A DNA stretch of 64,000 nucleotides, from contig NZ_FXAM01000001.1 in the NCBI RefSeq assembly GCF_900155475.1, positions 731,501 through 795,500 on the forward strand, read 5' to 3'. Source of the DNA: Methylomagnum ishizawai (GTDB lineage Bacteria > Pseudomonadota > Gammaproteobacteria > Methylococcales > Methylococcaceae). The position numbers and the translations under genes were made by a program. Below the pieces are notes generated by a model. That model was not told the origin of the DNA and did not search any database. It worked only from the letters and a program-made list of their open reading frames with translations. Positions 290 to 43,557 of the stretch are shown one piece after another (within the stretch, counting starts at the first letter, position 1; each line of letters opens with the position of its first letter).

Positions 290-601
290 ATGAGCAAAGA
301 AGACCCACAAATGAGATTTAGGGCCCCGCCTGCCCTGAAAAAACAGATTGAGGATTCAGCCTGGAAAAACAGGCGGTCAGCTAGCGCTGAAATCATTGCC
401 CGCCTTGAGGCGTCCTTTTCCAAGGATTGGGGCGACGATGAAGAAGTGGAGCGCCTCATGAAAGGTGCCGTACTGACGCTCAGCCCTGAAATGGTGGAGA
501 TATTCAAACGCCTTGAGGAGGAAATACGGAAAAATCCCGTCGATCTCTCCAAGTTACCGCTGGGACCACCGATCAACTCCGACACTTTAGATGACGAATA
601 A
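290..601 (+). CDS. Arc-type RHH regulator B
   Basis: 103-residue DNA-binding protein. The N-terminal RHH domain (about residues 8-43: MRFRAPPALKKQIEDSAW then NRRSASAEIIARLE) is followed by a charged helix with the conserved tail RLEEEIRKNPVDLSKL. The same tail ends the - strand protein at 31732-32040, so B genes and A genes form two paralogous divergent pairs in this window. The start at 290 abuts the operator palindromes. Probably a transcriptional repressor of the pair. Confidence 0.8.
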   Translation: MSKEDPQMRFRAPPALKKQIEDSAWKNRRSASAEIIARLEASFSKDWGDDEEVERLMKGAVLTLSPEMVEIFKRLEEEIRKNPVDLSKLPLGPPINSDTLDDE

Positions 602-627
602 AAAACCCGGCGCGGAAAGCATGGCTC

Positions 628-680
628 AATTTAACTCATGAGTCAAATTAAATCATTGCTCTGAGTCAGAAAGAGTCAGA
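628..680. promoter_or_regulatory. Operator-like palindrome and TGAGTCA repeats
   Basis: A 22-bp near-perfect palindrome centred on ACTCATGAGT (628-649, arms AATTT and AAATT) is followed by two direct GAGTCAGA repeats (663-670, 673-680) just before the Arc gene at 691. Its half-site differs from that of the operator at 211-276, so this regulator probably has its own binding specificity. Confidence 0.6.
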
Positions 681-690
681 AAATTCCGGC

Positions 691-966
691 ATGACAACGA
701 AACCAACACAACCCTACCCGATTCGGATGCCGCAAGAGATGCGGTCCCAGTTTGAGCGGGCCGCCAAAGAAAGTGGCAGGTCTTTACATGCCGAGATCAT
801 GATCCGGCTTGAAAGGTCACTTGAATACGATAGGGAAAAAGCAATACTCAGCCCCTTAGCGTCCAACTCGATAGGGAACGAACTCCTTGAAAAGCTTGCT
901 GCGGTACTGAGTGAAATCTATGGGCAGGCCAACAAAATGGCGGAAGATACAAAAAAAACCAGCTAG
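691..966 (+). CDS. Arc-type RHH regulator C
   Basis: 91-residue protein with an N-terminal Arc-like RHH domain (PIRMPQEMRSQFERAAKESG then SLHAEIMIRLERS, about residues 10-46) and a C-terminal helical tail. It is the third Arc-like gene within 1 kb, preceded by its own palindrome. Function as an autoregulated DNA-binding protein is inferred from the family; the target is unknown. Confidence 0.75.
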   Translation: MTTKPTQPYPIRMPQEMRSQFERAAKESGRSLHAEIMIRLERSLEYDREKAILSPLASNSIGNELLEKLAAVLSEIYGQANKMAEDTKKTS

Positions 967-1024: not shown

Positions 1025-1216
1025 ATGGATAAAGCTTTTCTCGATGGAATGGTGAAAATATTGGAATCCAATAAAAGCCAAGATATTCAAGAAGGATTTT
1101 CCAAGATGGTGAAAGCTATAGAAAAGCAAACAATCGCTTTCGGTACCAAGAAGAAACATATACAAGAGGATATCAAAAGTGGGTCAAGACTTACCAAGCA
1201 TCGATTATCTTTATGA
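1025..1216 (+). CDS. Small helical protein, unknown
   Basis: 63 residues, charged and predicted helical, no recognised family. ATG at 1025 has a GGAG site upstream. The last 38 nt overlap the next gene, suggesting coupling. Composition is AT-richer than the phage body. It could be a partner of the DUF6414-like protein or a decayed remnant. Confidence 0.5.
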   Translation: MDKAFLDGMVKILESNKSQDIQEGFSKMVKAIEKQTIAFGTKKKHIQEDIKSGSRLTKHRLSL

Positions 1217-2006
1217 CTTCCTATATTTGGATCGGTCACGCATGGGTTCCTATTGCGCCCAACTATTCGATGGCGGCATCCTGACCGGCACTAAGAGCAT
1301 TAAAAAGAACACCGAAAGCAAAAGCGCCACTTTTAATGGAGACGCTTTGGTTGCCAAGGCTGGGTTTGGAGGCCAAGAAGCATTGGAGGAATCTTTAGAA
1401 CACCAATTCGACGCGGGATGGTCCTTGCCGCTCAATGTATTAGATCGATTGGACGAGCTTGATTTCCTTCATCGAGACTTAGATTCAATACAGATTGGTC
1501 AATTACTATTAACGAAAGGTAGTATCACGGTCATTGATATAAAAATGCTGAAAAGCTTGTGGCGTCCTATTAGCCTTGCGATTACAAGCGAAGGAAAAGC
1601 CACCCATGCTAATAAAAAAGATAAGGAGCAGGCAAAAAAGCGGATGGAGTTGGTGGGAAGCGTATTGGACCAGCTTCCGCCAACAGTTCAGATGTTTTTT
1701 GAGGCTGGCAGGAACATTATTTGGTCGTCTCTAAGTGCAGATCAAATGATCATCAACCCCGACGACTTGGCCCTGAAATACGGCGGCAAAGTTGATGGAG
1801 AATGGCATATGCTTTCCGTTTTAGATGCTAAACCAGATCAAGCCGTTTTCTCTAGTTTGCCCACCTTCGTGCTGGAACATCAGTTCCTATGCGGGATAGC
1901 GGAAATAATAGAAAATATGCGTAAGTGGGTTGGAAGGCCGGGCTATGCATATGGCGCAACACCTATAGCGATATTCCGGGCATTGAAACCTGCTAACCAA
2001 TCTTGA
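1179..2006 (+). CDS. DUF6414-like protein
   Basis: 275 residues from a GTG start (AGAGGA site 7 nt before). The N-terminus has the pattern YDFLYLDRSRMGSYCAQLFDGG (split here: YDFLYLD, then RMGSYCAQLF), which I associate with DUF6414, a family of unknown function found in accessory and defence-like loci. There is no signal peptide or clear membrane segment. It ends 20 nt before a strong terminator and appears to form a two-gene unit with the small upstream gene. Assignment is from pattern memory only. Confidence 0.6.
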   Translation: MGQDLPSIDYLYDFLYLDRSRMGSYCAQLFDGGILTGTKSIKKNTESKSATFNGDALVAKAGFGGQEALEESLEHQFDAGWSLPLNVLDRLDELDFLHRDLDSIQIGQLLLTKGSITVIDIKMLKSLWRPISLAITSEGKATHANKKDKEQAKKRMELVGSVLDQLPPTVQMFFEAGRNIIWSSLSADQMIINPDDLALKYGGKVDGEWHMLSVLDAKPDQAVFSSLPTFVLEHQFLCGIAEIIENMRKWVGRPGYAYGATPIAIFRALKPANQS

Positions 2007-2227: not shown

Positions 2228-3613
2228 TTACTTTTCAAGTAATTGTCTGCAGATATAACCAATCACATTGGTCAATTCGTTTTCAAATGGTCTAGTAACG
2301 TCGTCATGTCCTGTTTTGGCATGAACCAATTCATGGATCAATGTGCCGGCATAATCTGAAATTGTTTTCAGATTTTTTCGATCAATGACAATTGAATATG
2401 AATTTTCATCCCAGCATCCAAGCGTTTCAACCCCAGAAAATAAATCTCTTCTCATCGTAGATGAGATTTTTATCTCCCTGACTTTTTTAGGCTTTCCACC
2501 GAAAATGTCAATTATTTTTTGAGTGTGTTGGTAGACAATTTTTTCTTTTTCGCTAAGATTTTCGAAATCGATAAAGTTGAATGTAAAGCTGTCGTTGTAA
2601 TTTGAAATAAATTGCCCAATATCGACTATGGGATTCCCTGATAAATCTCTTGAGTCTTGAATTTTTAGCTTTAGATTTTCTGGTATCGTAATAATTTCAT
2701 GACCACTATTTCTTGCTTGGTCAATCATGTCGGGATGCTGCATCGCCTCAAAAGAGGTTATAAAAAGATATTTCCCTTCTTGATTTAAGATTTTTACAGA
2801 ATGTTCTTGAACATCAATCCAACTCAACTCATCGTGGGCCGTTCCTGCGCTGATATTTGTCAAATCATTTGCGAGTATCTCAACAACTTCCTTTTTTGTG
2901 GATGACAATAATATTTTTTTAATTGAATCCGTATATGCGGTGCGTCCAACATTTGTCCGCTCTCTGTTCAGGGCTTTTTTAATTGAAGCATTTAATGTTG
3001 TAATGTTGTAGCTAAATAAAAAATTTTCCTCTTCGGCAACTTTTACGCCATTTATATAAATATTTCCATGGCCTTTGCTGTGCTTAACGATCTGTCCTTG
3101 CTTTGTTGTTTCAATTATTTCTTCACCTGAGAACTTTAAAAAAAGCTTTTTTGCGTCATCAATATCTTTGTCAGTAACTCCATTTAATTCAATTTCTGTA
3201 CCCACAAGGTCGGGATCGACCGCATCCTCAATTATTGCATGTAAAGTAACAATATCTTGGAATCCTTGTTTTTGTGATTTTGCAATTGTGATTCTACCAT
3301 ATTTTGATTTAGCGCTTACTATAATCTCCCTTCTATCAAAAGTTGCTAAAGCATCTTTTAAACCGATTCCAAACTTTCCAATTACGTTCGTACTAGCTAA
3401 TTTCTCTTCGTTTTCATTCTGAGTAAGGTGAGTATATTTTATGCCGCGCCCGAAGTCACGAATTATCCAAGAGTTTCCGCGCTTAAATATTTCTACATCC
3501 TTTGTTTTTGTCAAAATCTGCTCATCAAGCGCATTAGCAATTATTTCTCTAATTGCATGATACGTTTCCCAATTTTCAAGAATTCTTTCAATATTCAAAT
3601 CAAATTTTTTCAT
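2228..3613 (-). CDS. GHKL ATPase fused to a zinc metallopeptidase
   Basis: 461 residues. The N-terminal half carries the Bergerat (GHKL) ATP-binding motifs: REIIANALDE (about 22-31, the Glu/Asn helix), DFGRGI (about 53-58) and GKFGIGLKDALA (about 79-90). The C-terminus has HELVHAKTGH (427-436), a zinc-peptidase HExxH with a possible third His ligand. The ATPase half resembles Hsp90/MutL/MORC-type proteins; an ATP-driven switch controlling a protease is inferred. The gene is strongly AT-rich beside a GC-rich phage. AGGAG lies 7 nt before the ATG, and a cassette-like element lies just upstream. A defence or abortive-infection role is plausible but unproven. Confidence 0.75.
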   Translation of the reverse strand: MKKFDLNIERILENWETYHAIREIIANALDEQILTKTKDVEIFKRGNSWIIRDFGRGIKYTHLTQNENEEKLASTNVIGKFGIGLKDALATFDRREIIVSAKSKYGRITIAKSQKQGFQDIVTLHAIIEDAVDPDLVGTEIELNGVTDKDIDDAKKLFLKFSGEEIIETTKQGQIVKHSKGHGNIYINGVKVAEEENFLFSYNITTLNASIKKALNRERTNVGRTAYTDSIKKILLSSTKKEVVEILANDLTNISAGTAHDELSWIDVQEHSVKILNQEGKYLFITSFEAMQHPDMIDQARNSGHEIITIPENLKLKIQDSRDLSGNPIVDIGQFISNYNDSFTFNFIDFENLSEKEKIVYQHTQKIIDIFGGKPKKVREIKISSTMRRDLFSGVETLGCWDENSYSIVIDRKNLKTISDYAGTLIHELVHAKTGHDDVTRPFENELTNVIGYICRQLLEK

Positions 3614-3882: not shown

Positions 3883-4281
3883 TCAGTTCAAAGCCCTATT
3901 CCCTACGCTGAGTAGCGTGTAAAACACGAAATAACCAAGCATTGAGAGAATGAAGAAGGCCGGGATCGTGGCAATCGCCCACTTCACCATCAGGAAAACC
4001 ATGTCCCAAAATGGAATGTCCACGCCAACAAGCACCACATCATTGGCGTTTAGCGGCCTTAGTTGAGTGTTGATTTTGATTGTAGATGATCCCCTTTCTT
4101 GGGTGGTTTCCGTATCCGGCGATTTGCCGCCTTTTGCAAGGGTGACCAATAGCGCCAGAATAACCAAAACTATAAAAATGACCAAGCCGAGCAATGGATT
4201 TGCGTGGGATTCGCCTGTATAGCCATACGAATAAGCCGGGGCTAGCAAAGACGCGATTATAAAAGCGGGATATGTTTTCAC
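3883..4281 (-). CDS. Small membrane protein with signal-like N-terminus
   Basis: 132 residues from a GTG at 4281, chosen because AGGAAGG lies 6 nt before it; an upstream extension to 4479 has no such site. A hydrophobic N-terminus (about 5-20), a strong membrane segment (GLVIFIVLVILALLVTLA, about 31-49), a polar domain, then another membrane stretch near the C-terminus (AIATIPAFFILSMLGYFVFY). No family recognised. It is lone cargo between the GHKL gene and the phage late genes. Confidence 0.6.
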   Translation of the reverse strand: MKTYPAFIIASLLAPAYSYGYTGESHANPLLGLVIFIVLVILALLVTLAKGGKSPDTETTQERGSSTIKINTQLRPLNANDVVLVGVDIPFWDMVFLMVKWAIATIPAFFILSMLGYFVFYTLLSVGNRALN

Positions 4282-4453
4282 GGCGAGCCTTCCTATGTTC
4301 GATGTGTCTTTGAATCCTAGTCGATACAGCGGACTGGTCAAGCCATAGGGACCACTTCCAGGAATAGTCACCAGCCCAACCGCGCCCTGGCGACTATTTG
4401 GACGAATAATCACCAGCCAGTGGTAGGTTCCCGCCGCATGATGCGCCGGCCCC

Positions 4454-4462
4454 GGTCGTGAC
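4454..4462 (+). promoter_or_regulatory. GGTCGTGAC late-gene element 1
   Basis: Nine-base motif ending exactly 38 nt before the ATG at 4501. The same motif sits at fixed spacing before seven other virion-gene units. Candidate phage late promoter or activator site. Confidence 0.6.
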
Positions 4463-4500
4463 TTCAAAATCCCGGCCATCTATCCAGCCGCGCCACGCCC

Positions 4501-7500
4501 ATGCTCTACCTGCTGTTCACGCCCGCCGACCTCCTGAAGGCCGAACAACTCGGCCTCTTCGACATGCCCACCCAGGTCCGCGCCCACACCCGCAAGGACG
4601 GCGCGGTCGTCGCGCCGCACATCCGCTTGCAGAAAAAGCGCCTGCATCCGCAAGGCGGACAGCACGACCTATTCGGCCACGCCGAGCCCAGGACCGAGGC
4701 CCACAAACTGGGGCGGCTGGGCCAGTTCGTCCACAAGCACGGCGGCTATCGGCGGCTGCTGTCGATCCTGGCGGGCCTGCCCGAGCCGCAGCGCGACAAG
4801 CTCCACGAGAGCATGGCCGAGGTGGCCCGCAAGCCGGTGGCGATGGTGCGGGAGTTTTTGGCGTTGGGGGCGAAGCATGAGGCACCGGCGAAGGGTGGGA
4901 CGGCGCTGACCGGCGAGGAGGTGGCGGGGGAGGTCAGCCCGCACGATGCGCCCAGCCGGGGCGAGGTTGGCCCAAGCGAAGGCGACACGAAGGAAGAAAA
5001 CGGCCATCGCTACGTCCTGCGCGATAGCCGGTGGCATCGAATCAATGAGGAATCTACGGATGAAAATACTGGACCTACCCAGGGTGATGAAGAACAAGGT
5101 GCATCGGCTGGTGCGGGCGGAACTGCGGACGAGGTCTCTGGCGTTCCATCGGAGGGTGGCGCGGGCGCAGAACCGGAAAGCACTGAACCAGCGCATGACC
5201 CAGTGGCCCACGCCGAGGCCAAGCAAGACCTTGCCGACGAACTCCTGACCAACCCCGACAGCGAACGGGCGGCGGAGTTGGCGCGGAAGGTGGCGGACGG
5301 CTTCAAGGCCGGCCAACTGGAAAAGTTGCGGACCAAGATCGAGGAGATGGGCGGCAAGGCCAAGGTGGCCGAAGCCATCAAGCACGAAATCGGCAAGTCC
5401 GGCGGGTTGGATGCAGGCGGCGTCAAAAGCCGCGCGGTCGCCCTGGTCGATGGGCTGGCAACCTCCCTCAACCTGTCGCGCGATGAGGTGTTGGCCGAAC
5501 TCGGCCTGAAGGAGGTCCGGCGCAAGGCCCGCGCCACCCCCCAGAAGCCCAAGAACACCTTGGAAACCGGCGGCGACTTTTCCGACGACGATCCCAATTC
5601 GCCCAACTATCGTTTCCGCGATACCGGCTACATCGGCGGCAGCCGCAAAGAACTGGCCGCCCAGATGATCCGGCAGGCGGGTCGCGAGGGACGGCAACTC
5701 CGCGCCACCGATATTGATTGGCAGGAGATCGAACAAAACCCCCGCGAGGCCAAGGAACTCATCACCAAGAGCAACCTGTTCGGCGCCGTCGATTGGGATG
5801 CGCTCAAGGCGGGTGGCATGGAACCGGGGGCCGGGTTCCTTGTGGACCGCGTTTATGCCAGCCTTGCGCCCGAACCCCCCGAAGACAGCGCCCAGGCCCG
5901 GCGGGATTATGCCGTCGGCCTGGAAAGCCTCCGTACCCGCCTTGAAGCCTGCAAAACCCCCGACGAGGTGACGGATGCCCTCAACACCCTGCGCGACGAA
6001 TACGAGGGTGCGATCCTGAATGCCCAGGAAGCGGCGGACTACCAGAAGGCGCAGGGGATTTACCGGGGGATCGCCGACCGGCGATGGGCGCTTTCCAAAG
6101 AGCGCGATGCGCTGGTGCAGGCCATGATCAACCCCGGCCACGAGGCCAGCGCCCTGGGGTATAAGCAACAACGCCGATTGGATAAGGGATGGAAGGCCGA
6201 CCCGGCCTTGGAGGGGCAAATCCGCCAACTCAAGGCCGCTGCCGAGCAAGCGCGGGCCGACCTGGAAGAGTGGGATGCCCGGCACCCCGAGGTGGCGAAG
6301 GGCCGCACCGACAGCCCGATGGCGCAGGCCGTGGGCCAAGCCTACGGTGTGATGCGCTCCATCGTCGAAAAGGCCAAGGCCCGCAACCAAGAGGAGAACC
6401 CGGTCCATCGCGCTTGGAAACTCATGGGGCCGCGATTCCTGGGCATCCTCAACTACCGGCGGCGCGAGGGGTCGGACGCTTTCCGCGAACACCTGGCCGC
6501 AGCCAAAATCGGCAAGATCGAGGATTGGTCCTGGGCCGAAAAGGAGCGCAAGACGGTCGATGCGCCCAAAGCCACGAAGGGCCAAGTCCGGTTTCAATTG
6601 CAAGTCGCCGAAACCTTCGAGCGCAAGGGCGGCCAGCCGGTCAAGGTGGCTTCCACGGCGGCGCTCAAGGCGATGTTCGGCCTGCGTGACGTGCAGTCCG
6701 GCAACTGGGTGCTGTCCGACCCGGCTGCGGCGGCATTCCACGTCCAGAAATCGGCGGAGGCATTGTCCGACTTGGCCGACCTGTTGGACGTGGAACCCGG
6801 CCAGATCGCGATGAATGGTCGCGTGGCCCTGGCCTTCGGGGCGCGTGGGCGCGGCGCGGCTGGCGGCATGGCGGCCAGGGCGCATTATGAGCCTGTCCAC
6901 CGCACCATCAACCTCACGAAGCTGGGGGGCGGCGGCTCGCTGGGGCATGAGCTTTTCCATGCCATCGACAACCTCATCGGTGAAGTTGAAACCGGGCAAG
7001 CCAGCAGCAAGGACGTATATGCCAGCGAAGACCCCGCGCTACTGCCAGAGGGGGAGTTGCGCGATGCCATGATCGCATTCCGCCGCGCCATGCTGGACGG
7101 CCCCCACCGGCTGGGCGAGAAGATCAGGTACACCGACAAGGACGTGAAGACGGCACGCTACAACATCGACCGATCCATCACGCGGGGCGTGGCCGGGATC
7201 ATCAAGGCCGCGGGCGATATCCATGCCGCCGTGCGGGCGGTGGATGCCCATTTCGCCGGACGCACGGACAAGATGTCCGAGAAGAACCGCAAGGACTGGC
7301 GCAAGATGGCCGCCGCCTATTACGACGCCAAGCCCGCCGGAGGGGAAGCCCTGGTCGAGTCCGGGCCGACCCTGTCCGCGTTCGCCTTCGAGGCCTCCAA
7401 ACTCGACAGCGACGACCACGGCAAATATTGGAGCAAGCCCCGCGAAATGGCGGCCAGGGCGTTCCAAGCGTGGTGCGAAGACCGGTTGGCGGGGCAAGGG

Positions 7501-7680
7501 CGGCGCAACGATTACTTGTCTTCGATGGCCGACAACCGCTACTACCGTCTATTGGATCAAAAACCCTTCCCCGAAGGCGAGGAACGCGACCGTATCAACA
7601 TGGCGCTGGATGGCTTGGTGGTGGCGCTGCGGAAGGCCGGGACGCTGGCGAAGGCGTTTGGGCTGCTGAAAGCCGCCTAG
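4501..7680 (+). CDS. Large polyvalent protein with LPD1-type peptidase-like domain
   Basis: 1059 residues, multi-domain. The C-terminal third contains GGSLGHELFHAIDN (HExxH at 816-820), the hallmark of the LPD1 domain described in phage and plasmid polyvalent proteins; zinc protease activity is possible. The N-terminus has a short header (VRAHTRKDGAVVAPH, about 26-40) resembling headers in two other phage proteins here, then a low-complexity acidic region (about 125-230) and long helical segments. Such proteins are packaged in the virion and injected with the DNA to act on the host, which is known for the class and inferred here. It has its own late element 38 nt upstream and no clear Shine-Dalgarno. 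Confidence 0.75.
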   Translation: MLYLLFTPADLLKAEQLGLFDMPTQVRAHTRKDGAVVAPHIRLQKKRLHPQGGQHDLFGHAEPRTEAHKLGRLGQFVHKHGGYRRLLSILAGLPEPQRDKLHESMAEVARKPVAMVREFLALGAKHEAPAKGGTALTGEEVAGEVSPHDAPSRGEVGPSEGDTKEENGHRYVLRDSRWHRINEESTDENTGPTQGDEEQGASAGAGGTADEVSGVPSEGGAGAEPESTEPAHDPVAHAEAKQDLADELLTNPDSERAAELARKVADGFKAGQLEKLRTKIEEMGGKAKVAEAIKHEIGKSGGLDAGGVKSRAVALVDGLATSLNLSRDEVLAELGLKEVRRKARATPQKPKNTLETGGDFSDDDPNSPNYRFRDTGYIGGSRKELAAQMIRQAGREGRQLRATDIDWQEIEQNPREAKELITKSNLFGAVDWDALKAGGMEPGAGFLVDRVYASLAPEPPEDSAQARRDYAVGLESLRTRLEACKTPDEVTDALNTLRDEYEGAILNAQEAADYQKAQGIYRGIADRRWALSKERDALVQAMINPGHEASALGYKQQRRLDKGWKADPALEGQIRQLKAAAEQARADLEEWDARHPEVAKGRTDSPMAQAVGQAYGVMRSIVEKAKARNQEENPVHRAWKLMGPRFLGILNYRRREGSDAFREHLAAAKIGKIEDWSWAEKERKTVDAPKATKGQVRFQLQVAETFERKGGQPVKVASTAALKAMFGLRDVQSGNWVLSDPAAAAFHVQKSAEALSDLADLLDVEPGQIAMNGRVALAFGARGRGAAGGMAARAHYEPVHRTINLTKLGGGGSLGHELFHAIDNLIGEVETGQASSKDVYASEDPALLPEGELRDAMIAFRRAMLDGPHRLGEKIRYTDKDVKTARYNIDRSITRGVAGIIKAAGDIHAAVRAVDAHFAGRTDKMSEKNRKDWRKMAAAYYDAKPAGGEALVESGPTLSAFAFEASKLDSDDHGKYWSKPREMAARAFQAWCEDRLAGQGRRNDYLSSMADNRYYRLLDQKPFPEGEERDRINMALDGLVVALRKAGTLAKAFGLLKAA

Positions 7681-21652: not shown

Positions 21653-22078
21653 TCAAGCCACATGCAGTTCCAGCCGCTTGCCCACGGCGGAAAAAGCCTT
21701 AGCCAAGGTGTCGATCTTGGTGGCGTGGTGCAAATCCATGATCCGGGTCATTTCCTGAGGCTTGACGCCAATCGCCCTTGCCAAATCGGCTGGACGGATT
21801 TGCTTTTCGATCATTTCGTTAAGCAACATTACCTTGGCGCTCATGGAAAGCGGTAGTTCGACCCATTCCTCACCCGCTTCCGCCGGGCTGGGTTCGGGAA
21901 CGCGGCGGCTGTCCTCGATATAGAAATCCATCGCCGAGATGAGTACATCCAAAGCCATTCCACGCGCCTCTTCCAGGGTAAGCCCTTGGGTGACGGCTTC
22001 GGGAATATCCCGGAAGCTTACAAAATAAATCCCTTTCTCGTCGGGTTCAAAATGTGCCGGAAATTTAAGCATGGTCAT
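21653..22078 (-). CDS. hicB: HicB-type antitoxin
   Basis: 141 residues. N-terminal HicB fold (YFVSFRDIPEAVTQGLTLEEA with DVLISAMDFYIE, about 18-57) and a C-terminal helix-turn-helix (PADLARAIGVKPQEMTRIMD, about 96-116). Neutralises the HicA RNase and represses the operon by binding DNA; family knowledge. Located 98 nt downstream of hicA on the same strand. Confidence 0.85.
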   Translation of the reverse strand: MTMLKFPAHFEPDEKGIYFVSFRDIPEAVTQGLTLEEARGMALDVLISAMDFYIEDSRRVPEPSPAEAGEEWVELPLSMSAKVMLLNEMIEKQIRPADLARAIGVKPQEMTRIMDLHHATKIDTLAKAFSAVGKRLELHVA

Positions 22079-22176
22079 TATATCCTGGTGTTTTTAAGTC
22101 GTATCTCTAAATGCCGGTTATGGTGCCCGGCGGCCTTTGCAAGTAACTCCTCCCCCCTGACGGAGGGAGCATTTGT

Positions 22177-22350
22177 TTAAATACCTAGCTGGCTTAGAAT
22201 CGCTTTTCGTAGTTTTTCGTTCAGTTCCTGGCTGGGGTGTCTCGGTAGAAAGGAGACTTGCCCTTTATAGGTTAGTTTCCAGTGGTTGGTGGCGTTTGTC
22301 ACCACCACACCTTTCGACTCAAGCCACCGTTTGAACTCGCTTACTTTCAC
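22177..22350 (-). CDS. hicA: HicA-type mRNA interferase toxin
   Basis: 57 residues from a GTG at 22350 with GGGGG 4-8 nt upstream. Reads KVSEFKRWLESKGVVVTN, WKLTYKGQVSFLPRHPSQEL, ending KAILSQLGI; the HPxxE His is the family's catalytic residue. Cleaves mRNA when free of HicB. Toxin-first order with hicB downstream is the common arrangement. Confidence 0.85.
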   Translation of the reverse strand: MKVSEFKRWLESKGVVVTNATNHWKLTYKGQVSFLPRHPSQELNEKLRKAILSQLGI

Positions 22351-22382
22351 ATTACCCCCTTCGTTATTATGTTGGAATAAAT

Positions 22383-22402
22383 TATAAACTAAAAAGTTTA
22401 TA
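22383..22402. promoter_or_regulatory. hicAB operator palindrome
   Basis: TATAAACT and AGTTTATA around AAAA, 33 nt upstream of the hicA start: the expected place for HicB autorepression. AT-rich in a GC-rich context. Confidence 0.7.
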
Positions 22403-22461
22403 GCGTGAATGGCTTTGTTTAAAGCTGGGCGGGTGGGATTTTAAGCGGGGATTGGGGGGTT

Positions 22462-23100
22462 GGGGCCGCGTCCTTGCGGCGGGGGTTCCTCAGTGGAGCG
22501 GGAGGGATTCCTGGCGCGGGATGCGCGCCGCCAGTTGGTGGAAGGCCTTGTCGCGGATGGCGAGCGCGGCGCTGCCTTCGCCCAGCTTGGGTTCGGCCAC
22601 GGCGGCCATGGCTTGCAGGATGGCGGCGGGCAGCTCCCGCCGTGTCTCGTGGACCGGGACGTGCAGGGTTTGCAGCAGGGCCAATTCCAGGTTGAGGCAG
22701 GTCCACCACAGGCGGTAGGCCTGTCCGTGGAAGGCTTCCAGCAGGTTCAGCAATTCGTCGAGGCGGTCGGCGGGGATGTCGCGGACGTTGCCGACGCCGA
22801 ACTTGGCCCGGAGGTGGGTGTGGATGCGGGGGCTGATCTGCTGGTTGGAGCGGTTGAGGTAGCGCCCCAGGCTGCGGGTGTATTCGCCCACCACCCATTG
22901 CGCGATCTCGCCCAGGGGCGCGGGGGCGGGCTGGGCCGCTTCGGGGTGGACATAGCGCCCGGTCTTGCGGATGGCCGGGAGGACTTCCGCAGTCACCCAC
23001 TTCTTGAACTTCTTGGCCTCGGGCTTGCGACTGGTGAGGATCAGGGAGTAGAGGCCGGATTCGTTGATGAGGGTCATTTCCTGGGGGCCGCCAGGGGTGT
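22462..23100 (-). repeat. 639-bp inverted repeat, left arm
   Basis: Identical by eye, with one mismatch found, to the complement of 32526-33164. Covers Bro-1 residues about 64 to the end, its stop and the 16-mer. Outside it the two copies diverge abruptly. Arms 9.4 kb apart in inverted orientation are a substrate for homologous inversion. Confidence 0.9.
22464..22479. repeat. 3'-end 16-mer, copy 2
   Basis: CCGCAAGGACGCGGCC on the - strand, 10 nt after the Bro-1 stop. Confidence 0.6.
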
Positions 23101-23290
23101 GCATAGTATGCACTCCCTTTTCGTCATCATCTAAACGGCGCAGGTTGCTGGCTGGGTGGGCGAATTCGAGGACGGCGCAGACATCGTTTGCGACGAACCA
23201 AGGTTCGCCCTCAATGACAAAAACGCGGATTTCGGTAGTGGTGTAGGGAAAAACGGTGGGTGCGGACGCACCTTGGGCGTGGTTGCTCAT
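22490..23290 (-). CDS. Bro-N family antirepressor 1
   Basis: 266 residues. N-terminal Bro-N domain (IRVFVIEGEPWFVANDVCAVLE, given in part: GEPWFVANDVCAVLE at about 28-42; RLDDDEKGV; INESGLYSLILTSRKPEAKKFKKWV; VLPAIRKTGRY), then a helical C-terminal domain. Such proteins relieve prophage repression. C-terminal 200 residues are encoded in the 639-bp inverted repeat and are the same as in Bro-2; the first 60 differ. A C4-like antisense RNA lies in its leader. hicAB is downstream on the same strand. Confidence 0.85.
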   Translation of the reverse strand: MSNHAQGASAPTVFPYTTTEIRVFVIEGEPWFVANDVCAVLEFAHPASNLRRLDDDEKGVHTMHTPGGPQEMTLINESGLYSLILTSRKPEAKKFKKWVTAEVLPAIRKTGRYVHPEAAQPAPAPLGEIAQWVVGEYTRSLGRYLNRSNQQISPRIHTHLRAKFGVGNVRDIPADRLDELLNLLEAFHGQAYRLWWTCLNLELALLQTLHVPVHETRRELPAAILQAMAAVAEPKLGEGSAALAIRDKAFHQLAARIPRQESLPLH

Positions 23291-23309
23291 GACAAGCTCC
23301 GATTGATTG

Positions 23310-23430
23310 CTACTTGGAGCCGCCGCGTCTCGCTGCTAAACGAGATGGCGACGGGATGCACTGGGTTAGCAGACCGGCTCAATCGGACACCGGCAGACCT
23401 CGCGATCTCCCAGCGCATCCCGCCATAGAA
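23310..23430 (-). ncRNA. C4-like antisense RNA in the Bro-1 leader
   Basis: On the - strand, GGGATGCGCTGGG (23421-23409) pairs over 13 bp with CCCAGTGCATCCC (23365-23353), one G-U pair, enclosing two hairpins (AGATC-gcga-GGTCT and GCCGG...CCGG). The segment GGTCTGCTAACCC is complementary to GTTTAGCAG copies upstream (near 23500) and just before the Bro start (near 23333). This matches phage C4 RNAs, which silence antirepressor translation in P1/P7. Confidence 0.6.
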
Positions 23431-23445
23431 TGGGACCATAGGCAC

Positions 23446-23476
23446 AAAAAAAGCGCCCATGGCAAAGAAGGCGCTT
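23446..23476 (-). terminator. Terminator upstream of the C4-like RNA
   Basis: On the - strand AAGCGCC pairs with GGCGCTT and is followed by a run of Ts. It would stop transcription before the C4/Bro region unless antiterminated, a layout suited to leader control of the antirepressor. Confidence 0.7.
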
Positions 23477-23690
23477 GCGCACCGATTGAAATCTCAGGCT
23501 GCTAAACCCGGCCAGCGAAATTTACCGTGGCTGGGGTAGCGTAAGCGGATTTTTGGATTGGTGTCAATGTGAATATTTACGTTGACGGGGAGGTGGGGGT
23601 GTTGCAGCCTTTTAACTGACACATTCGTATAGCACTCCAAATCCGGGTGTTAGACGGCTAGCTAGCTATTATAGTAAGGCGCATTGGAAT

Positions 23691-24152
23691 ATGCCGGAAA
23701 ACGAAGCTCTGAAATATCTTGAAGATGAACTTGCTAAACAGGCTTTAAGCTTTGATGATAGCCGGAAATTCTATAGACGGAACTACTTCTACTATACATT
23801 AGCAACCGCCTCCCTATCTGCGCTTACAACTATTCTTATTGGAATTGGGCAAAGTTATGAATCTAAATTACTCTCAGTAATTTCTCTTATAACTAGTGCA
23901 AGTATTACAGTTGTGGCGGCTTGGGACGGGTTTTTACGTTCACGAGAGCTATGGGTTCAAAAAACAGATACTTGGATGGCATTGCAGAATCTTGATGCGA
24001 ATATTAAATACGCCAAAGCAAAATCTGGAGGGGTTCTCGCTGAGAGTCAAATCGATGATTTTTATCAACGCTTTGATAAAATCCTTATGGGAGAACATGA
24101 GCTTTGGAAGAAAGTTCGCAGCACACAAACTGAAAGCACGAAGAAATCATGA
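23691..24152 (+). CDS. SLATT/DUF4231-like two-TM protein
   Basis: 153 residues: N-terminal helix, two membrane segments (ATASLSALTTILIGIG about 38-54; LSVISLITSASITVVAA about 61-78), then the conserved-looking WDGFLRSRELWVQKTDTW and a helical tail. This is the SLATT/DUF4231 plan, a pore-like effector class usually linked to nucleotide-second-messenger defence systems. No sensor or cyclase gene is adjacent. AT-rich; GTTAGAC lies 36 nt upstream as in captured cassettes. Confidence 0.7.
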   Translation: MPENEALKYLEDELAKQALSFDDSRKFYRRNYFYYTLATASLSALTTILIGIGQSYESKLLSVISLITSASITVVAAWDGFLRSRELWVQKTDTWMALQNLDANIKYAKAKSGGVLAESQIDDFYQRFDKILMGEHELWKKVRSTQTESTKKS

Positions 24153-24241
24153 TGCATCGTAAGTTCGATAGGGTGTACATGTATATATACCCGCCGCATT
24201 CTAGCAGGTTAAACCAGCCTAAAACCCAACCCATACCCACC

Positions 24242-24322
24242 ATGAAAACCGCAGACCTCAAGCGCTTGATGGGCGAGGTGCTGGCCTCCCTTCCGGCCCC
24301 CTATTCCGAACACATCACATAA
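24242..24322 (+). pseudogene. 26-codon N-terminal gene remnant
   Basis: Reads MKTADLKRLMGEVLASLPAP then YSEHIT and stops 3 nt before the GIY-YIG gene start. It looks like the beginning of a larger conserved protein cut off at the inserted gene, but could be a true short peptide. Confidence 0.35.
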
Positions 24323-24325
24323 CCC

Positions 24326-24964
24326 ATGCCAAATATAATCTATGTGCTTACCAATGAAGCCATGCCTAACATGGTTAAAATCGGGCTAACCAACGACAGC
24401 GTGGAAACACGGATTGCCCAACTCAGTTCGCATTCAGGTGTTCCGTTGCCGTTTGAGTGTTATTTCGCCGCTGAAGTCAATGACTGCGTCAAACTGGAAA
24501 AAACCCTCCATCAGCTTTTCTCGGAAAACCGCGTCAATCCAAAAAGGGAGTTTTTTAAAATCGACCCGGAAAAAGTGGTGCTTGCCATAAGCATCGGGGA
24601 TTTTACGGAAGTCACCCCCGGAGTGGCCGAATTCGATAAGGAAGAACAAGCCGCCCTTGAGAAGGCAAAGGCGCGTCGTCCCAGGCTCAAGCTCGACGCT
24701 TTGGGCATCAAGCCTGGGGATGTCCTTACCTGCTCGCGGGATGAAACGCTTACCGCCACGGTAGTCGATGGCGGAAAAGTAGACTTCCAAGGGGAAACCC
24801 TTAGCCTTTCAGCGGCGGCCCTTAAGGCGCTCCATAGTCTGGGTTACAAAACACCTTCCGCAAGTGGTTCGGATTATTGGATATTCGATGGCGAATTGCT
24901 TGACGAAAGACGCCGCCGTATGGAAGCGGAGCAATTCGACGAAACTTTGCCCGTCAATGCCTGA
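24326..24964 (+). CDS. GIY-YIG-type nuclease with C-terminal RAMA-like domain
   Basis: 212 residues. N-terminus IIYVLTNEAMPNMVKIGLTN (4-23) is the GIY-YIG variant of the T5orf172/Mug113 type, with RIAQLSSHSGVP and LEKTLHQLFSENR completing the fold. Residues about 125-200 (GIKPGDVLTCSRDETLTATV, VDFQGETLSLSAAALKAL, SDYWIFDGELL) resemble RAMA domains found with modification/restriction proteins. A DNA nuclease that senses sequence or modification is inferred. It directly follows a truncated gene. Confidence 0.7.
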   Translation: MPNIIYVLTNEAMPNMVKIGLTNDSVETRIAQLSSHSGVPLPFECYFAAEVNDCVKLEKTLHQLFSENRVNPKREFFKIDPEKVVLAISIGDFTEVTPGVAEFDKEEQAALEKAKARRPRLKLDALGIKPGDVLTCSRDETLTATVVDGGKVDFQGETLSLSAAALKALHSLGYKTPSASGSDYWIFDGELLDERRRRMEAEQFDETLPVNA

Positions 24965-25143
24965 CTTGATATAGGCGTATATGGGGGACGCATTTTTCCC
25001 GTGCGTCGTTATCGCCGGTCCGCTGCTATTGCGCCGATACCCCTTGGCGGGCTTGATTATGCGGCATTGGAGGCGGGGCTAGATGGCTTTTAGTTTTTTA
25101 GCCTTCCCTGTCATGAGTAAGGTTCCGCCACCCGTCAGCGGTT
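24965..25143. other. Short non-coding stretch
   Basis: About 180 bp between the nuclease and membrane-protein genes. No gene seen; contains GGGGACGCATTTTTCCCGTGCGTC, a weak stem (GACGCA/TGCGTC). Confidence 0.4.
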
Positions 25144-25176
25144 TTGAAGACTTGTTTTCACATTAAAGGGATCAAC

Positions 25177-25638
25177 ATGCAGGATGGAAAACATGCCGGA
25201 AATGTCGTATTGCTCCGGGGCGCTACATTATGGATATTGATGGCTTTATTGCTGGCGTGGTGCATGGTGGGGCTATATCACAAAACACCCTACCTTGACG
25301 TGATATTCGCTGGTAAATTCATGAGGCTATTGCAGGCGCACATCGATTTTCTGCTGATGAGCGCTCTAATTCTGGGGTTTTATGCCGCTAAAGTGCCACT
25401 GCCCTGGCATGTGTGCTGGGCCATGGTGGTAGGTGGATTCACCAATTCCAGCCTGTTTCTGTTGCAAGCCATTTTCCCCGCACTTGATCCTACAATGGCC
25501 GCTCAAGTGCCTTCGATCGGCATCTGGTCGCAGGTGTTCGAAGTCTACCTCTTTGCCAGTCTCATCACGACCAGCTATGGCTTTGGCAAAGGGGCTGTGG
25601 TTATTTTTCGATCCACGCTCAAGAGCAATACCCATTAA
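25177..25638 (+). CDS. Four-TM membrane protein, unknown
   Basis: 153 residues from the ATG at 25177 (AAAGGG 6 nt upstream; an in-frame ATG at 25144 lacks a site). Four hydrophobic segments: TLWILMALLLAWCMVGLY, FLLMSALILGFYAA, WHVCWAMVVGGFTNSSLFLL, VYLFASLITTSYGFG. QAHIDFLLM before TM2 recalls small isomerase/HAB-type membrane proteins, but the match is weak. Followed by another membrane gene at 25660. Confidence 0.6.
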   Translation: MQDGKHAGNVVLLRGATLWILMALLLAWCMVGLYHKTPYLDVIFAGKFMRLLQAHIDFLLMSALILGFYAAKVPLPWHVCWAMVVGGFTNSSLFLLQAIFPALDPTMAAQVPSIGIWSQVFEVYLFASLITTSYGFGKGAVVIFRSTLKSNTH

Positions 25639-25659
25639 AAATTACCGAAAGGAAAAAAT

Positions 25660-26052
25660 ATGATAGGTATTTTTGGAGACCATTCTGGCCAATTTTTATC
25701 AATCGTGGGCTGGTTGATTATGGTGGCTTTTGCCATACCTATCACCCTCTGGCCATTTCAGTGGGCAAAAGCGGTGGGATGGGAGATTCCGAATCAAACC
25801 GATTTAGCCCTATACTTCGGGCGATGTTTGGGTTGCGTGGGGGGCGCCGTTGCGTTATTTAGCATTTTGGCTGCGAACAGCCCGTTGGTGCAACCGTTCT
25901 ATTTTAAACTCTTACTTACGATCTGGGCTTTAATGGTCATACTTCATATTTATGGAGCCATTAAGCAAATCCAGCCAGCTCTTGAAACCTATGAGATTGG
26001 TTTTTGGTTTGGATTGTTTTTACTCACGTTATGCTTTTTCCCAATCGGGTAA
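25660..26052 (+). CDS. Four-TM membrane protein, unknown
   Basis: 130 residues with GAAAGGAAAA upstream. Four membrane stretches (FLSIVGWLIMVAFAIPITL, CLGCVGGAVALFSILAA, FKLLLTIWALMVILHIYG, FWFGLFLLTLCFFPIG). 22 nt after the previous gene, so probably one operon with it. No family recognised. Confidence 0.6.
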   Translation: MIGIFGDHSGQFLSIVGWLIMVAFAIPITLWPFQWAKAVGWEIPNQTDLALYFGRCLGCVGGAVALFSILAANSPLVQPFYFKLLLTIWALMVILHIYGAIKQIQPALETYEIGFWFGLFLLTLCFFPIG

Positions 26053-39930: not shown

Positions 39931-40253
39931 TGGCGGGCGGGGCCGCGTCCTTGCGGTGGGAATCCCTCAGTGGAACAACCGCTCCTGGACATCGGCTCTC
40001 GGATGCTTCTACGGTCTACCGGGGGTCGTCGCGCATCCGTGCGCTCCTTCTCGGATAAAAATAAACAAAAGGGCGCGGAATGCGCCCTGGGTTTTGTCCC
40101 TGGGTTATGGCACGGCCAAGCCCTTGAATTATCTGGCTTGCCCGGTTGTGCCAAAATTCCTGAGTTTTGACATGAATCATTTTTTATGTAACGTCTAGTT
40201 AGACTGGGGTCGAACTATTAATTCAAATTGCACTTCTATACAATTTACTACGA
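39931..40253. other. Non-coding gap with Bro 3' remnant and hairpin
   Basis: About 320 bp without a gene. Begins with the 16-mer (39941-39956) and a degenerate last-codons match to the Bro 3' end (reads QERLFH-stop where Bro reads QESLPLH-stop; an in-frame stop follows upstream). GGGCGC-ggaat-GCGCCC near 40072 followed by T-rich DNA is a possible terminator of upstream units. Remainder is AT-rich spacer after the cargo gene. Confidence 0.55.
39941..39956. repeat. 3'-end 16-mer, copy 4
   Basis: CCGCAAGGACGCGGCC on the - strand, next to a short degenerate Bro 3' end. Confidence 0.6.
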
Positions 40254-41063
40254 TTAGTTATCGGTATTATGTTCTTCATTGAAGATGGCTTTTTTATTTT
40301 TGTTATCTAAATCTGAGATCGTTTTTTGATTGTGCAAATAACGTTTTAAAAGCTTAATAAAAAAGTCATCGCCAAACATTCGGTCAAATTCTGTGAAATT
40401 CGCCATTCGATTGAGGATAAATTTTGCTTCCGCTTCGGATGTTGATTTATATAACCTTGCTAGGTCTTTGCGGATTTGAAACTTAACTTCAAAATTAATT
40501 TTGTTTGTATAAGATGAAAGCGTATAGTCGAAATCATGGTCTCTATATGATAATGAATTAGCTTCATTGTCAATCGGCACTATGATAGCATCTACCCAGT
40601 CACTACCATCCAATAAAATACTATAAGGGTCATTTGTCTTCAATTGATGGCTTTGCGTTAAAGATAAAGGTTCTGATAATAAAGGTCTAGCTGCAATTTT
40701 AATAAATTCTCCAATATAATTATTTTTTATATTAAACTCGCTAAACTTATTTGAATTCGTCCTTGAACACATGGCAGATAGCCCAAAAAAATATAAGTCA
40801 ACTTGGCTGATTTTTGGATTTGGAAGAAAAAAGCTTTGAACTATTTCAACACGCATCCCATAAGATTTATAGCATTTATTATCAAAACCACATACTGCAT
40901 TATCAATACTTGTGTACCCAACAACCTTTCCAATGAAAATATACTCTTCTGGATCAACTTCTTTATGACTTCTGAGTTCGCCTATTTTACATCCATACGC
41001 AAGGCAAGGGAGCATTGCCATTATGGATAATAAAGTTATTATTAACTTAACCATATTTATCAA
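40254..41063 (-). CDS. AT-rich exported protein, unknown
   Basis: 269 residues with a signal peptide (LIITLLSIMAMLPCLAYG, cleavage likely about residue 24; four Cys in the next 85 residues). Strikingly AT-rich inside the GC-rich late region, between terminase and portal genes. A cassette-like element (41100-41182) lies directly upstream, as for the GHKL gene. ATG at 41063 or 41054; neither has a strong site. Function unknown; clear cargo. Confidence 0.65.
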   Translation of the reverse strand: MINMVKLIITLLSIMAMLPCLAYGCKIGELRSHKEVDPEEYIFIGKVVGYTSIDNAVCGFDNKCYKSYGMRVEIVQSFFLPNPKISQVDLYFFGLSAMCSRTNSNKFSEFNIKNNYIGEFIKIAARPLLSEPLSLTQSHQLKTNDPYSILLDGSDWVDAIIVPIDNEANSLSYRDHDFDYTLSSYTNKINFEVKFQIRKDLARLYKSTSEAEAKFILNRMANFTEFDRMFGDDFFIKLLKRYLHNQKTISDLDNKNKKAIFNEEHNTDN

Positions 41064-41099
41064 AGTATCTTATCATCCCAAATAGCATGGTTTTAAGCC

Positions 41100-41182
41100 A
41101 GCGTCTAACACCGCCCCTGCGGATAACGGGCGTTATGTCCAAAAGCGGCGCAGGCTGCCCAATAATCCCACACCCGCCCAAC
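41100..41182 (-). repeat. Cassette-boundary-like element (copy 2)
   Basis: On the - strand: GTTGGGCGGGTGTGGGAT, about 27 nt, CATAAC-GCCC-GTTATCC, GGGGCGG, then GTTAGAC (41103-41109). Homologous to 3664-3746 in sequence, order and orientation, each 40-50 nt before a lone AT-rich gene. GTTAGAC is an integron-core-type heptamer also found before the SLATT gene. Confidence 0.5.
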
Positions 41183-41226
41183 GGTCAAGCTCCGGCCAAA
41201 CCGCCTAGCCCCGAACCAGCCCAGCG

Positions 41227-41457
41227 TCATCCCGCATACCGTATTGCCTCCTCCCGATCCAACCCCAACCGCTCGGCAATCCGTCCATGGTCGTACCCGA
41301 TGCGGCGCAGGCTCCGCACCTGGGCGGCGATCTGGACGTGGACGGGAGTTTCGGGCGCGGGGTCCACGGGAATCCCCGTAGCCCCCTTGGAGATTGGTTT
41401 GGGCCGGGCCAAGCCGGATTCGGACGGGGGACGGTGTCTTGGGCGGTTATGGCTCAT
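41227..41457 (-). CDS. Small HTH-like phage protein
   Basis: 76 residues, AGGAG 6 nt before the ATG. Basic, disordered N-terminus, then a helix-turn-helix-like C-terminus (IAAQVRSLRRIGYDHGRIAE, RLGLDREEAIRYAG) as in resolvase-type HTHs. Follows the terminase large subunit by 18 nt. Could be a packaging accessory or regulator. Confidence 0.6.
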   Translation of the reverse strand: MSHNRPRHRPPSESGLARPKPISKGATGIPVDPAPETPVHVQIAAQVRSLRRIGYDHGRIAERLGLDREEAIRYAG

Positions 41458-41475
41458 GCTTGCTCCTTCGGTGCA

Positions 41476-43557
41476 TTATTCATCTCTCACAAAAAACCCA
41501 CATCCCCGGTCCCGCGCCCGGACCTGGAATCCCCGCCAGCCACAGGCCGCGCTTTCCCGCGCCTTGTCGCCATAGTGCCCGCAGCGCCCGCAGAGATCGC
41601 CCGCCGGAAGGTCCAGTTGGCTCAACATGGCCTGGACGGTCGGTGGCAGGGTATTCGACATCGCGTCCATGGCCTCCCGGACTTGGCCCTTCGGTTGCTC
41701 GCCCATCGGTTCCGCCTCCGGCAGGATGAACATGCCGGTCCCGTGGCTCCTGGCCCAGGCCACGTCGCAGAGCATGTTGGCGTAGCTGAAATGGGGGTCG
41801 ATGCCGACCTTCTTGACTACCCGCCGGTACTTGTTCGTTTCCCCGTCCTTCTCGGCCACCAAGGCGGTCTTGGTGAAGTGGTGGAACGCCCGCGGCAATA
41901 CCGCCACGGTCTGGCGGACGCCCTTCTCGACCACCTCTTGGACCAGCCCTTGCGGGTCCGGGAACAGGCATAGCGGGGTCTTGGCCGTCAACCGCGCCAT
42001 GGAAACCTGCATGCACTTGTACTGGTCCATCCGCAGGGTATAGCGGTCGCGCTCCGATTCGTCCGTACGCCGGTCGGACGAATCCAGGCCGGCCGCGTCG
42101 CCCCAGGCGATCATCCCTTCCGCGATCTGCCCGAACGAATCGCAGATGAACACCCGGCGCGGCCAGCGGTTGGCGAAGCGCTTGGCGTCGTTGTAGTTGG
42201 GGTTGATCTCGACCACCGCCACGGCTACGCCGTAGGCCTCCATCAACTCGTCGCAGCGCCCGAACGGGTCGGCGGAGTAGATTTCCTCGACATGGACCAC
42301 CGCTTGGCGACCATCGGGCATCCGCTCCTTGACGACCACCACATTGAAGTTGCCCATTTGGTCGATACCCATGAAGGTATCCCGCGCCCGCGTCTTCCAG
42401 ACCACCCCGGCGGCGCGGCCCGCTGCGACACACCGCTCCAGGTGTTCCAGCGTGACCGGTACTTGGGTCGGGTCCAGGTAGGGCTTCCCCAGTTTGCGGT
42501 TGAAGAAATTCTTCAGGTCCGTCGCCGTGTTGTAGGCGAACATGATGTCGCCCGGCGAAATCGTGGGGCTCAGGAATTGCGGGAAATGGATGGAGCGGAT
42601 TCGGAGCGGCCTATCCGCTTTCGGCACCGACAAATCGACCGTCGGATCGGCCAGGGGATTTTCCGCGATCCACTCGCCACGTTGGCTGTCCGCGATGACC
42701 GTCCCGCAGGCTGGGTTGCCGCACACGTAGCGCCATGCGTCCAAGGCTTCCACCCACCGGATGCAGGCCGGGAAATAGTCGTCCAGCGGTCGCGCCGCGC
42801 CGCAATGCGGACATGCGGTATGGAACCGGTATTGCGCCCCCCGCTTGTACCAATGGTGGATATCGGCATCCGGCCAGTTCGCCGTGGAGCCCATCAGCAC
42901 GAAGCGCACATCGGAGGCGGACAGGCGCTCCAGGGTCTTCTCCATTTGCTCCAAGGTCATTTCCTGCACCTCGTCGAAGGCCAGGACATCCATGGGGATG
43001 GATTCCGTGGTGGCCTTGCCCGAGGTCCACGAGAACACGAACATGGCCTCGCCGATGCGGCGGGTGTAGACGTTGCCTTCGCCGGTTTTGCGCCCGGAGC
43101 CGTCCGGGGCGTCCATCGTCATCAGCTTGTGGATGCCGGGGGCCGAGCGTACCAGGGGCATGAACCGCTCGGACGACTTCAAGCCGGCCAGTTTCATGTC
43201 GGGAAGGAACAGGCCCACCGTGGCCGGGCCGAAACGCAGTCCGAGGTAGATCGTCGCCAGCATCTCCATGACCGTGAACCCGACCTGGGCGCACTTCATC
43301 AGGACCAGGACCAGCCGGTAGGCCTCGTCTTCGGTGCTGGGTATCTGGTCGTAAATCCAGGCCATCGCCGGGCGGTCGTCCAGGCGGAAGGGATGGCCGT
43401 CCACTTTCAAGCCTTGGGCGGCGAGGCTTTCGCACCATTGGCGGAAGGTTGTGCCTTCGGGGATGGGCTTGGCGAGGTCCGCGCCCTCGATCCTCGCCCG
43501 CCTGCGCCGCCTCAGCTCCAATTCGGCCTGGGCGCGGACGGAAAGGGGAATCCTCAT
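41476..43557 (-). CDS. Terminase large subunit (GpA family)
   Basis: 693 residues. ATPase half: RLVLVLMKCAQVGFTVMEML, MDVLAFDEVQEMTLEQME (Walker B DE near 195), VRFVLMGSTANWPDADIHHW; nuclease half after about residue 390 (DTFMGIDQMGNFNVVVVKER, VAVVEINPNYNDAKRFANRW). Zinc-like HTACPHCGAARPL near 245 and a Cys-rich end (CGRCGHYG, ACGWRGF). Typical GpA-type packaging motor. ATGA overlap with the small subunit gene. Confidence 0.85.
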   Translation of the reverse strand: MRIPLSVRAQAELELRRRRRARIEGADLAKPIPEGTTFRQWCESLAAQGLKVDGHPFRLDDRPAMAWIYDQIPSTEDEAYRLVLVLMKCAQVGFTVMEMLATIYLGLRFGPATVGLFLPDMKLAGLKSSERFMPLVRSAPGIHKLMTMDAPDGSGRKTGEGNVYTRRIGEAMFVFSWTSGKATTESIPMDVLAFDEVQEMTLEQMEKTLERLSASDVRFVLMGSTANWPDADIHHWYKRGAQYRFHTACPHCGAARPLDDYFPACIRWVEALDAWRYVCGNPACGTVIADSQRGEWIAENPLADPTVDLSVPKADRPLRIRSIHFPQFLSPTISPGDIMFAYNTATDLKNFFNRKLGKPYLDPTQVPVTLEHLERCVAAGRAAGVVWKTRARDTFMGIDQMGNFNVVVVKERMPDGRQAVVHVEEIYSADPFGRCDELMEAYGVAVAVVEINPNYNDAKRFANRWPRRVFICDSFGQIAEGMIAWGDAAGLDSSDRRTDESERDRYTLRMDQYKCMQVSMARLTAKTPLCLFPDPQGLVQEVVEKGVRQTVAVLPRAFHHFTKTALVAEKDGETNKYRRVVKKVGIDPHFSYANMLCDVAWARSHGTGMFILPEAEPMGEQPKGQVREAMDAMSNTLPPTVQAMLSQLDLPAGDLCGRCGHYGDKARESAACGWRGFQVRARDRGCGFFVRDE

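Follow-up and report, generated by a model that had tools for sequence, protein, structure and literature searches.

An Hsp90-like ATPase joined to a minigluzincin-like zinc protease, carried as prophage cargo in Methylomagnum ishizawai

The gene and its slot in the prophage

The window analysed here, a stretch of 64,000 nucleotides from Methylomagnum ishizawai, carries near its start an open reading frame (ORF) of 461 amino acids (aa) (Table 1), whose limits had been given exactly in an earlier note on this DNA and whose strand is minus. The gene is AT-rich, as had been noted, with 34.3% GC versus about 61-64% for the window, is present in one copy in the M. ishizawai genome and occurs in two of 151 relative genomes when its own genome is counted. 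It lies inside a prophage, in agreement with the earlier description of the region as phage-linked accessory DNA, with a tail/baseplate module on one side and a polyvalent/helicase/head module on the other. Upstream are genes that we take, from reading their sequences, to encode tail and baseplate proteins as well as a transposase (L113), and downstream follow genes for the polyvalent LPD1 protein, a 1555-aa helicase, a head protease and the major head protein, as assigned with Pfam and PHROGs. A 198-aa ORF located upstream of the gene gave no match in a Pfam search and possibly encodes a partner of the ATPase-protease; the closest relative (L012, 88% identical) is adjoined by a SLATT_2 (2TM) effector. 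More low-GC stretches (49-55%) are found at 22000-26000 and 40000-42000 of the window and possibly represent further cargo.

Table 1. Positions of the ATPase-protease gene, its predicted domains and motifs, and adjoining genes in the window
Feature	Position	Strand	Basis
Whole gene, 461-aa Hsp90-like ATPase/minigluzincin-like protease	2228..3613	-	ORF list, conservation, AF2, GC and dN/dS
GHKL (Bergerat) N-domain, residues 1-165, boundary approximate	3119..3613	-	PF13589 above cut-off; AF2; hhalign to HtpG
ATPase motif I, REIIANALDE, residues 22-31	3521..3550	-	E23, N27, D30 in 64/64
ATPase motif II, DFGRGI, residues 53-58	3440..3457	-	D53, G57 in 64/64
ATPase motif III/lid, GKFGIGLKDALA, residues 79-90	3344..3379	-	G79, G84, K86 in 64/64
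Hsp90 middle-like domain, residues 166-344, boundary approximate	2582..3118	-	hhalign to HtpG N+M
NVGR, residues 221-224, opposite HtpG NVSR	2942..2953	-	hhalign; R224 in 63/64
C-terminal zincin, residues 345-461	2231..2581	-	AF2 pLDDT 95.9; Wss1 Z 9.2, SPRTN Z 8.2
HELVH zinc/catalytic motif, residues 427-431	2321..2335	-	H427, E428, H431 in 64/64
D438...E444, candidate third zinc ligands	2282..2302	-	both in 64/64
198-aa ORF with two hydrophobic stretches, candidate partner, upstream of the ATPase-protease gene	3883..4479	-	ORF list
DUF6414/phrog_9699 prophage accessory gene, convergent with the ATPase-protease gene	1179..2006	+	Pfam, PHROGs (4e-58)
Two Arc-family repressor genes, edge of cargo slot	290..966 (290-601, 691-966)	+	Pfam; Arc-like ORF at matching place in L123
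Polyvalent LPD1 protein, opposite edge of cargo slot	4501..7680	+	Pfam; homologue in sibling prophage

Another species of the genus (G001) has a related prophage, which encodes an LPD1 homologue that is 95% identical over residues 341-1059; alignment of the DNA of this prophage with the window picks up again only at window position 4413. The matching slot, extending from Arc-like repressor ORFs to the LPD1 gene, is occupied there by a gene for a 1115-aa VPA1262-family protein with 38% GC (L123:7639-10986). In the sibling prophage, an unrelated AT-rich gene thus takes the place of the ATPase-protease, which marks the position as a swappable cargo slot and speaks against a structural function in the virion. 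VPA1262 is named in the open-access literature only in papers on Vibrio parahaemolyticus and is not counted here as a proven defence gene, and it constitutes the only close comparison for the cargo slot. The slot resembles a hotspot, in which further cargo is conceivable. The LPD1 polyvalent protein also varies, comprising 1059 aa in the window versus 1613 aa in the sibling prophage (L123:1945-6786), where the extra middle part bears an NPPF methylase-like motif, a segment gained or lost within the polyvalent protein.

Domain architecture and conservation

The product is very probably a two-enzyme protein, composed of a GHKL N-domain, an Hsp90-like middle domain and a minigluzincin-like protease with HExxH...D...E. 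The presence of a GHKL ATPase and a C-terminal zinc protease in one polypeptide, as proposed in the earlier note, is borne out by the invariance of the motifs of both and by the AlphaFold model of a zincin. The proposed Bergerat motifs REIIANALDE, DFGRGI and GKFGIGLKDALA are all present, with their key residues invariant in 64 relatives. In Pfam, HATPase_c_3 (PF13589) passes its cut-off (28.1 vs 25 bits) and PF00183 gave no match, and a single-sequence search of the PDB also returned no match. Using hhalign, the HtpG alignment was found to extend over 321 columns and to take in both the N and the middle domain (Prob 91.9, E 7e-7), with the arginine of NVSR/NVGR conserved, whereas a MutL profile employed as control covers no more than 46 columns, all within the GHKL part (Prob 49). 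Because of this difference in extent, the ATPase is assigned from sequence profiles to the Hsp90 type in preference to a MutL/MORC type, with MORC structures also being among the fold hits for residues 4-258. The alignment with HtpG ends at residue 332, and the protease replaces the C-terminal dimerisation domain of Hsp90. The AlphaFold2 model of the whole protein (pLDDT 89) retrieves Hsp90/TRAP1/HtpG, MORC and GyrB folds, with RIIA proteins among viral models, and phrog_6077, whose function is not assigned, covers residues 3-310 (1e-20). In Hsp90, ATP binding closes the N-domains of the dimer and an arginine of the middle domain contacts the gamma-phosphate; R224 of NVGR is a candidate for this arginine, and by analogy E23 would be the general base and N27 the Mg ligand.

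Structure prediction, suggested earlier as a check, models the C-terminal part as a zincin, that is, as a peptidase-related fold. Its structural match to Wss1 extends over 104 residues (rmsd 2.9) and, with Z 9.2, is followed by SPRTN (Z 8.2) and minigluzincins (Z about 7), a Z near 9 being moderate for a small domain. Foldseek ranks 1-7 are all minigluzincins, with weak E-values (best 0.03). A core of about 100 residues with the HExxH helix, followed by a helix carrying the conserved glutamate E444, is found as in the minigluzincins jannalysin, abylysin and selecase, and projannalysin has HExxH and FENEL with spacing equal to that of the window protein; minigluzincins differ in being standalone proteins without an ATPase. 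The zincin assignment of the model is safe, since fold, HExxH and order of secondary structure agree, and by predicted fold the protease is Wss1/SPRTN/minigluzincin-like, the exact zincin family being not settled. At the C-terminus, the SprT-like Pfam profile PF10263 stays below threshold (12.3 vs 25.6 bits), SprT and WLM profiles reach Prob 49, which is weak, and 22 in hhalign, and PHROGs gave weaker matches, one of them to a metallo-protease family. As for the HELVH...H motif read earlier, HELVH stands and is invariant, but the third histidine (H436) is not conserved: among the 64 relatives no histidine is conserved as third zinc ligand, and the invariant acids D438 (+11) and E444 (+17) are found instead. 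Since minigluzincins use a third histidine (PMC6925264), it is left unasserted which acid completes the zinc site. Wss1 and SPRTN share the zincin fold and HExxH, but the SprT/WLM sequences fetched have a histidine as third ligand, in contrast to D438/E444 here, and no fused ATPase. Membership of the SprT/WLM family was rejected on the absence of this histidine and the profile scores below cut-off, and L118, with a HELQHW motif, was set aside as an unrelated zincin.

The conservation set of 64 relatives was collected nearly entirely by ATPase motifs alone, and hence conservation of the protease site is unbiased; its presence in 64/64 of a set fetched on other motifs rules out a chance HExxH. 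Invariant residues are E23, N27, D30, D53, G57, G79, G84, K86, G138, T139, N216 and R217 on the ATPase side and H427, E428, H431, D438 and E444 on the protease side. Values of dN/dS between close pairs (0.05-0.09 overall and at most 0.14 in any single part) indicate purifying selection on all three parts. A haloarchaeal copy (L009) has lost HExxH and kept the ATPase, so that the protease may be dispensable in this case, and on a Citrobacter plasmid the C-terminal piece alone remains, near insertion sequences. About 26 of the 91 scored members have a basic-aromatic C-terminal tail (KKPWYKFW, GFWxRLFG, SLFGRT) after a variable linker; this tail, present for instance in L010, L015, L018, L024, L025, L039, L041, L050, L060, L086, L090 and L093, recurs across phyla, is absent from the window protein and is possibly a docking or membrane motif. 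A copy from the same order (G102, L114:7589-9418), located between chromosomal housekeeping-type genes, has an acidic C-terminal extension of about 100 residues.

Distribution and gene neighbourhoods of the family

When 84,980 genomes, one for each species, were scanned with two ATPase patterns, 171 relatives were obtained; 80 of these were kept, which have 46-88% identity and come from lineages as far apart as Pseudomonadota, DPANN, Nitrosopumilus, Thorarchaeota and Lokiarchaeota. ATPase-protease relatives are thus present at at least 171 loci in about 85,000 species' genomes, sparsely but in many phyla and in archaea including Asgard, and are carried on plasmids, prophages and chromosomes. 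Many of them come from metagenome bins, and hence single taxon assignments may be wrong; isolates among the carriers belong to Sphingomonas, Janthinobacterium, Bacillus, Lysinibacillus, Exiguobacterium, Myroides and Saprospira. Full-length relatives with 40-50% identity are plasmid-borne in Priestia, Croceicoccus, Euzebya, Salinibacter and haloarchaea. The tree intermixes phyla, and the supported clade of the window protein contains 12 members from five named phyla (Pseudomonadota, Bacteroidota, Campylobacterota, Nitrospirota and Nitrospinota) with 71-88% identity. Among sequenced phages (50,697 records), the only match is a distant and partial one in Moorella phage MTATph1, whose translated gene carries HETLH...E and sits among replication genes, a setting compatible with counter-defence or with a housekeeping function of the virus. 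Several viral contigs contain relatives without the protease motif.

Clustering of neighbours gave no partner shared family-wide, so that a fixed operon partner was rejected, and most copies are without a recognisable defence neighbour. Some kinds of context nevertheless recur: copies are found flanked by hsdS and hsdR within a type I restriction-modification (RM) system in Salinibacter, directly after a RAMP gene where four bases are shared with a type III methylase-restriction operon (L026), adjoining a PrrC-like PDC-S06 ATPase, near RmuC in two loci and with UvrD-like neighbours. In an Aenigmatarchaeote the gene directly follows an Mre11-like/Rad50-like pair with a four-base overlap, and the same set is present in a second Aenigmatarchaeote, a Nanoarchaeote and Nitrosopumilus. 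Altogether 10 loci in at least two distant clades have Mre11-Rad50 neighbours, a label that needs at least four changes on supported tree branches, which implies a recurrent link and not one inherited neighbourhood; L045 and L072 were dropped from this count, as they have lone phosphoesterases. One Nitrosopumilus bin contains two copies (L035, L038) about 220 kb apart on the same contig, one of which adjoins an Mre11-Rad50-like pair. A five-gene set of Sphingomonadales, comprising a WYL regulator, a CoiA-like DUF7830/DUF6035 protein, SbcD, SbcC and the ATPase-protease, is a candidate defence system, whose gene content is conserved in three gene orders (L046/L055/L056, L050/L051 and L004). Haloarchaeal plasmids L007 and L008 share a block of a 310-aa WD40-like gene, a 666-aa gene without assigned function and the ATPase-protease; Piwi, phospholipase D or HNH genes lie close to it. 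Raw PADLOC and Pfam tallies of 124 neighbours, made without a background set, include GajA/PtuA/LmuB/mad-type and SMC/AAA matches, which are not used as proof because there is no control set and ATPase models cross-match. Read as raw contexts without a background statistic, the neighbourhoods of the family are suggestive of a conflict role.

Relation to known systems and possible roles

No PADLOC-DB model matches the protein, NCBIfam gave matches below cut-off only, and no account of a metalloprotease fused with an Hsp90 or GHKL ATPase was found in the open-access literature; within these sources, the earlier statement that no named defence system has this pair is upheld. The nearest functional analogue is VcSduA, a Shedu protein with a GHKL N-terminal domain from Vibrio cholerae with demonstrated anti-phage activity, for which control of the effector by the ATPase was proposed (PMC12137116). 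Both are single proteins with an N-terminal GHKL ATPase, a middle domain and an effector enzyme at the C-terminus. However, the effector of VcSduA is a PD-(D/E)xK nuclease (DUF4263), to which the window protein has no Pfam or PADLOC match, its C-terminus being modelled as a zinc protease of zincin fold. Nearest in idea are the MORC/paraMORC1-5 proteins, in which GHKL and S5 (MutL-like) modules are combined with C-terminal nuclease, TIR or HxH parts (PMC2292703). The paraMORC proteins share the GHKL module with a C-terminal extension, lateral mobility and RM genes adjoining some loci, but from the HtpG and MutL profiles the middle domain of the window protein is Hsp90-type, and its C-terminus is modelled as a zincin. 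Phage rIIA, a GHKL protein with a variable C-terminal domain and counter-defence roles (PMC7824862), resembles it in the ATPase, the divergent C-terminal part and fold matches, but is larger, and a protease domain is not established in rIIA here. Fusion of an Hsp90-type clamp with a zincin would make the protein a GHKL-gated effector with a protease instead of the described nucleases.

The best overall explanation, put forward tentatively, is a mobile protein of genome conflict, whose zinc protease is driven by the Hsp90-type ATP clamp to which it is attached. As in the Hsp90 family, ATP binding would dimerise the N-domains and shut the clamp on a client, and closure would hand this client to the attached protease, rendering proteolysis nucleotide- and client-gated. 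By this analogy, ATP-gated proteolysis appears fairly probable. On the grounds that Wss1/SPRTN are nearest in fold to the protease and that Mre11-Rad50 accompanies some copies, the client may be a protein bound to DNA that is damaged or comes from an invader; this part of the scheme is doubtful. As cargo of prophages and plasmids, the protein would shield the host cell, and hence the element itself, from competing phages or plasmids. Mobility and a patchy, cargo-like occurrence speak for genome conflict, with defence of the element's host as the most likely function and with DNA maintenance and counter-defence as rivals still in contention. Gene context favours a conflict or defence role, towards which the balance leans slightly. 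Counting against this explanation are the lack of a family-wide operon partner, the many copies without defence neighbours, the loss of HExxH in L009, the setting of the MTATph1 homologue and the single close comparison for the cargo slot.

The fold nearest to Wss1 and SPRTN, the Mre11-Rad50 operons in DPANN archaea, Nitrosopumilus and Sphingomonadales, and RmuC and UvrD-like neighbours would also fit a DNA-maintenance enzyme, an ATP-clamp protease that strips crosslinked or tightly bound protein off DNA with Mre11-Rad50-type nucleases, like eukaryotic Wss1/SPRTN, and that mobile elements carry for their own replication and not for immunity. This is considered unlikely, as the distribution is very patchy when compared with core repair, SprT/WLM proteins have another third zinc ligand, the SprT profile match is weak, and RM and SLATT neighbours occur. 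A rIIA-like protease of phages and plasmids disabling host defence or restriction proteins is rather improbable, since many copies in bacterial and archaeal genomes are placed beside RM genes, as on the defending side, and the single partial phage match amounts to near-absence from sequenced phages; in its favour are copies in prophages, plasmids and the Moorella phage, fold hits to RIIA proteins with their described counter-defence roles, and the adjoining LPD1 polyvalent protein of early-effector type (PMC5512222).

If the protein acted on its own host, ATP-triggered proteolysis of host proteins would lead to abortive infection and would be regulated by a partner or DNA. Single-gene effectors of about this size are usual in abortive infection, and the SLATT_2 neighbour agrees with such a toxin, but no antitoxin-like partner is conserved and the family is without a fixed operon, making this role distinctly improbable. 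The position between tail and head modules and the Hsp90-like folding module would suit a morphogenesis or processing factor, that is, a chaperone-protease for virion assembly. However, this role is highly improbable: the sibling prophage, with an unrelated gene in the slot, largely refutes it, and it is further opposed by a GC content unlike that of the prophage (34% vs 61%) and by the family being common outside phages.

In its widest form, the preferred reading of a mobile conflict protein would make the family a widespread, previously undescribed immune/conflict enzyme of bacteria and archaea, whose Hsp90-type clamp serves as ATP-driven sensor feeding a built-in Wss1/SPRTN-like protease, with clients that are perhaps invader-DNA-bound proteins, and which in some lineages forms a multi-gene system with Mre11-Rad50, joined in Sphingomonadales by a WYL regulator and a CoiA-like nuclease; taken as a whole, this wider proposal is speculative and open to considerable doubt. 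Hsp90-type chaperones are known to need separate proteases, and here both are united in one mobile protein, found in bacteria and in archaea including Asgard. If clamp closure gates proteolysis, the protein would provide a simple single-chain model of chaperone-coupled proteolysis, and proteases would be added as a class to GHKL-gated effectors, of which those with nucleases are known so far. The recurrent pairing with Mre11-Rad50 mirrors that of eukaryotic MRN and Wss1/SPRTN-type proteases on protein-blocked DNA, a shared logic that is testable.
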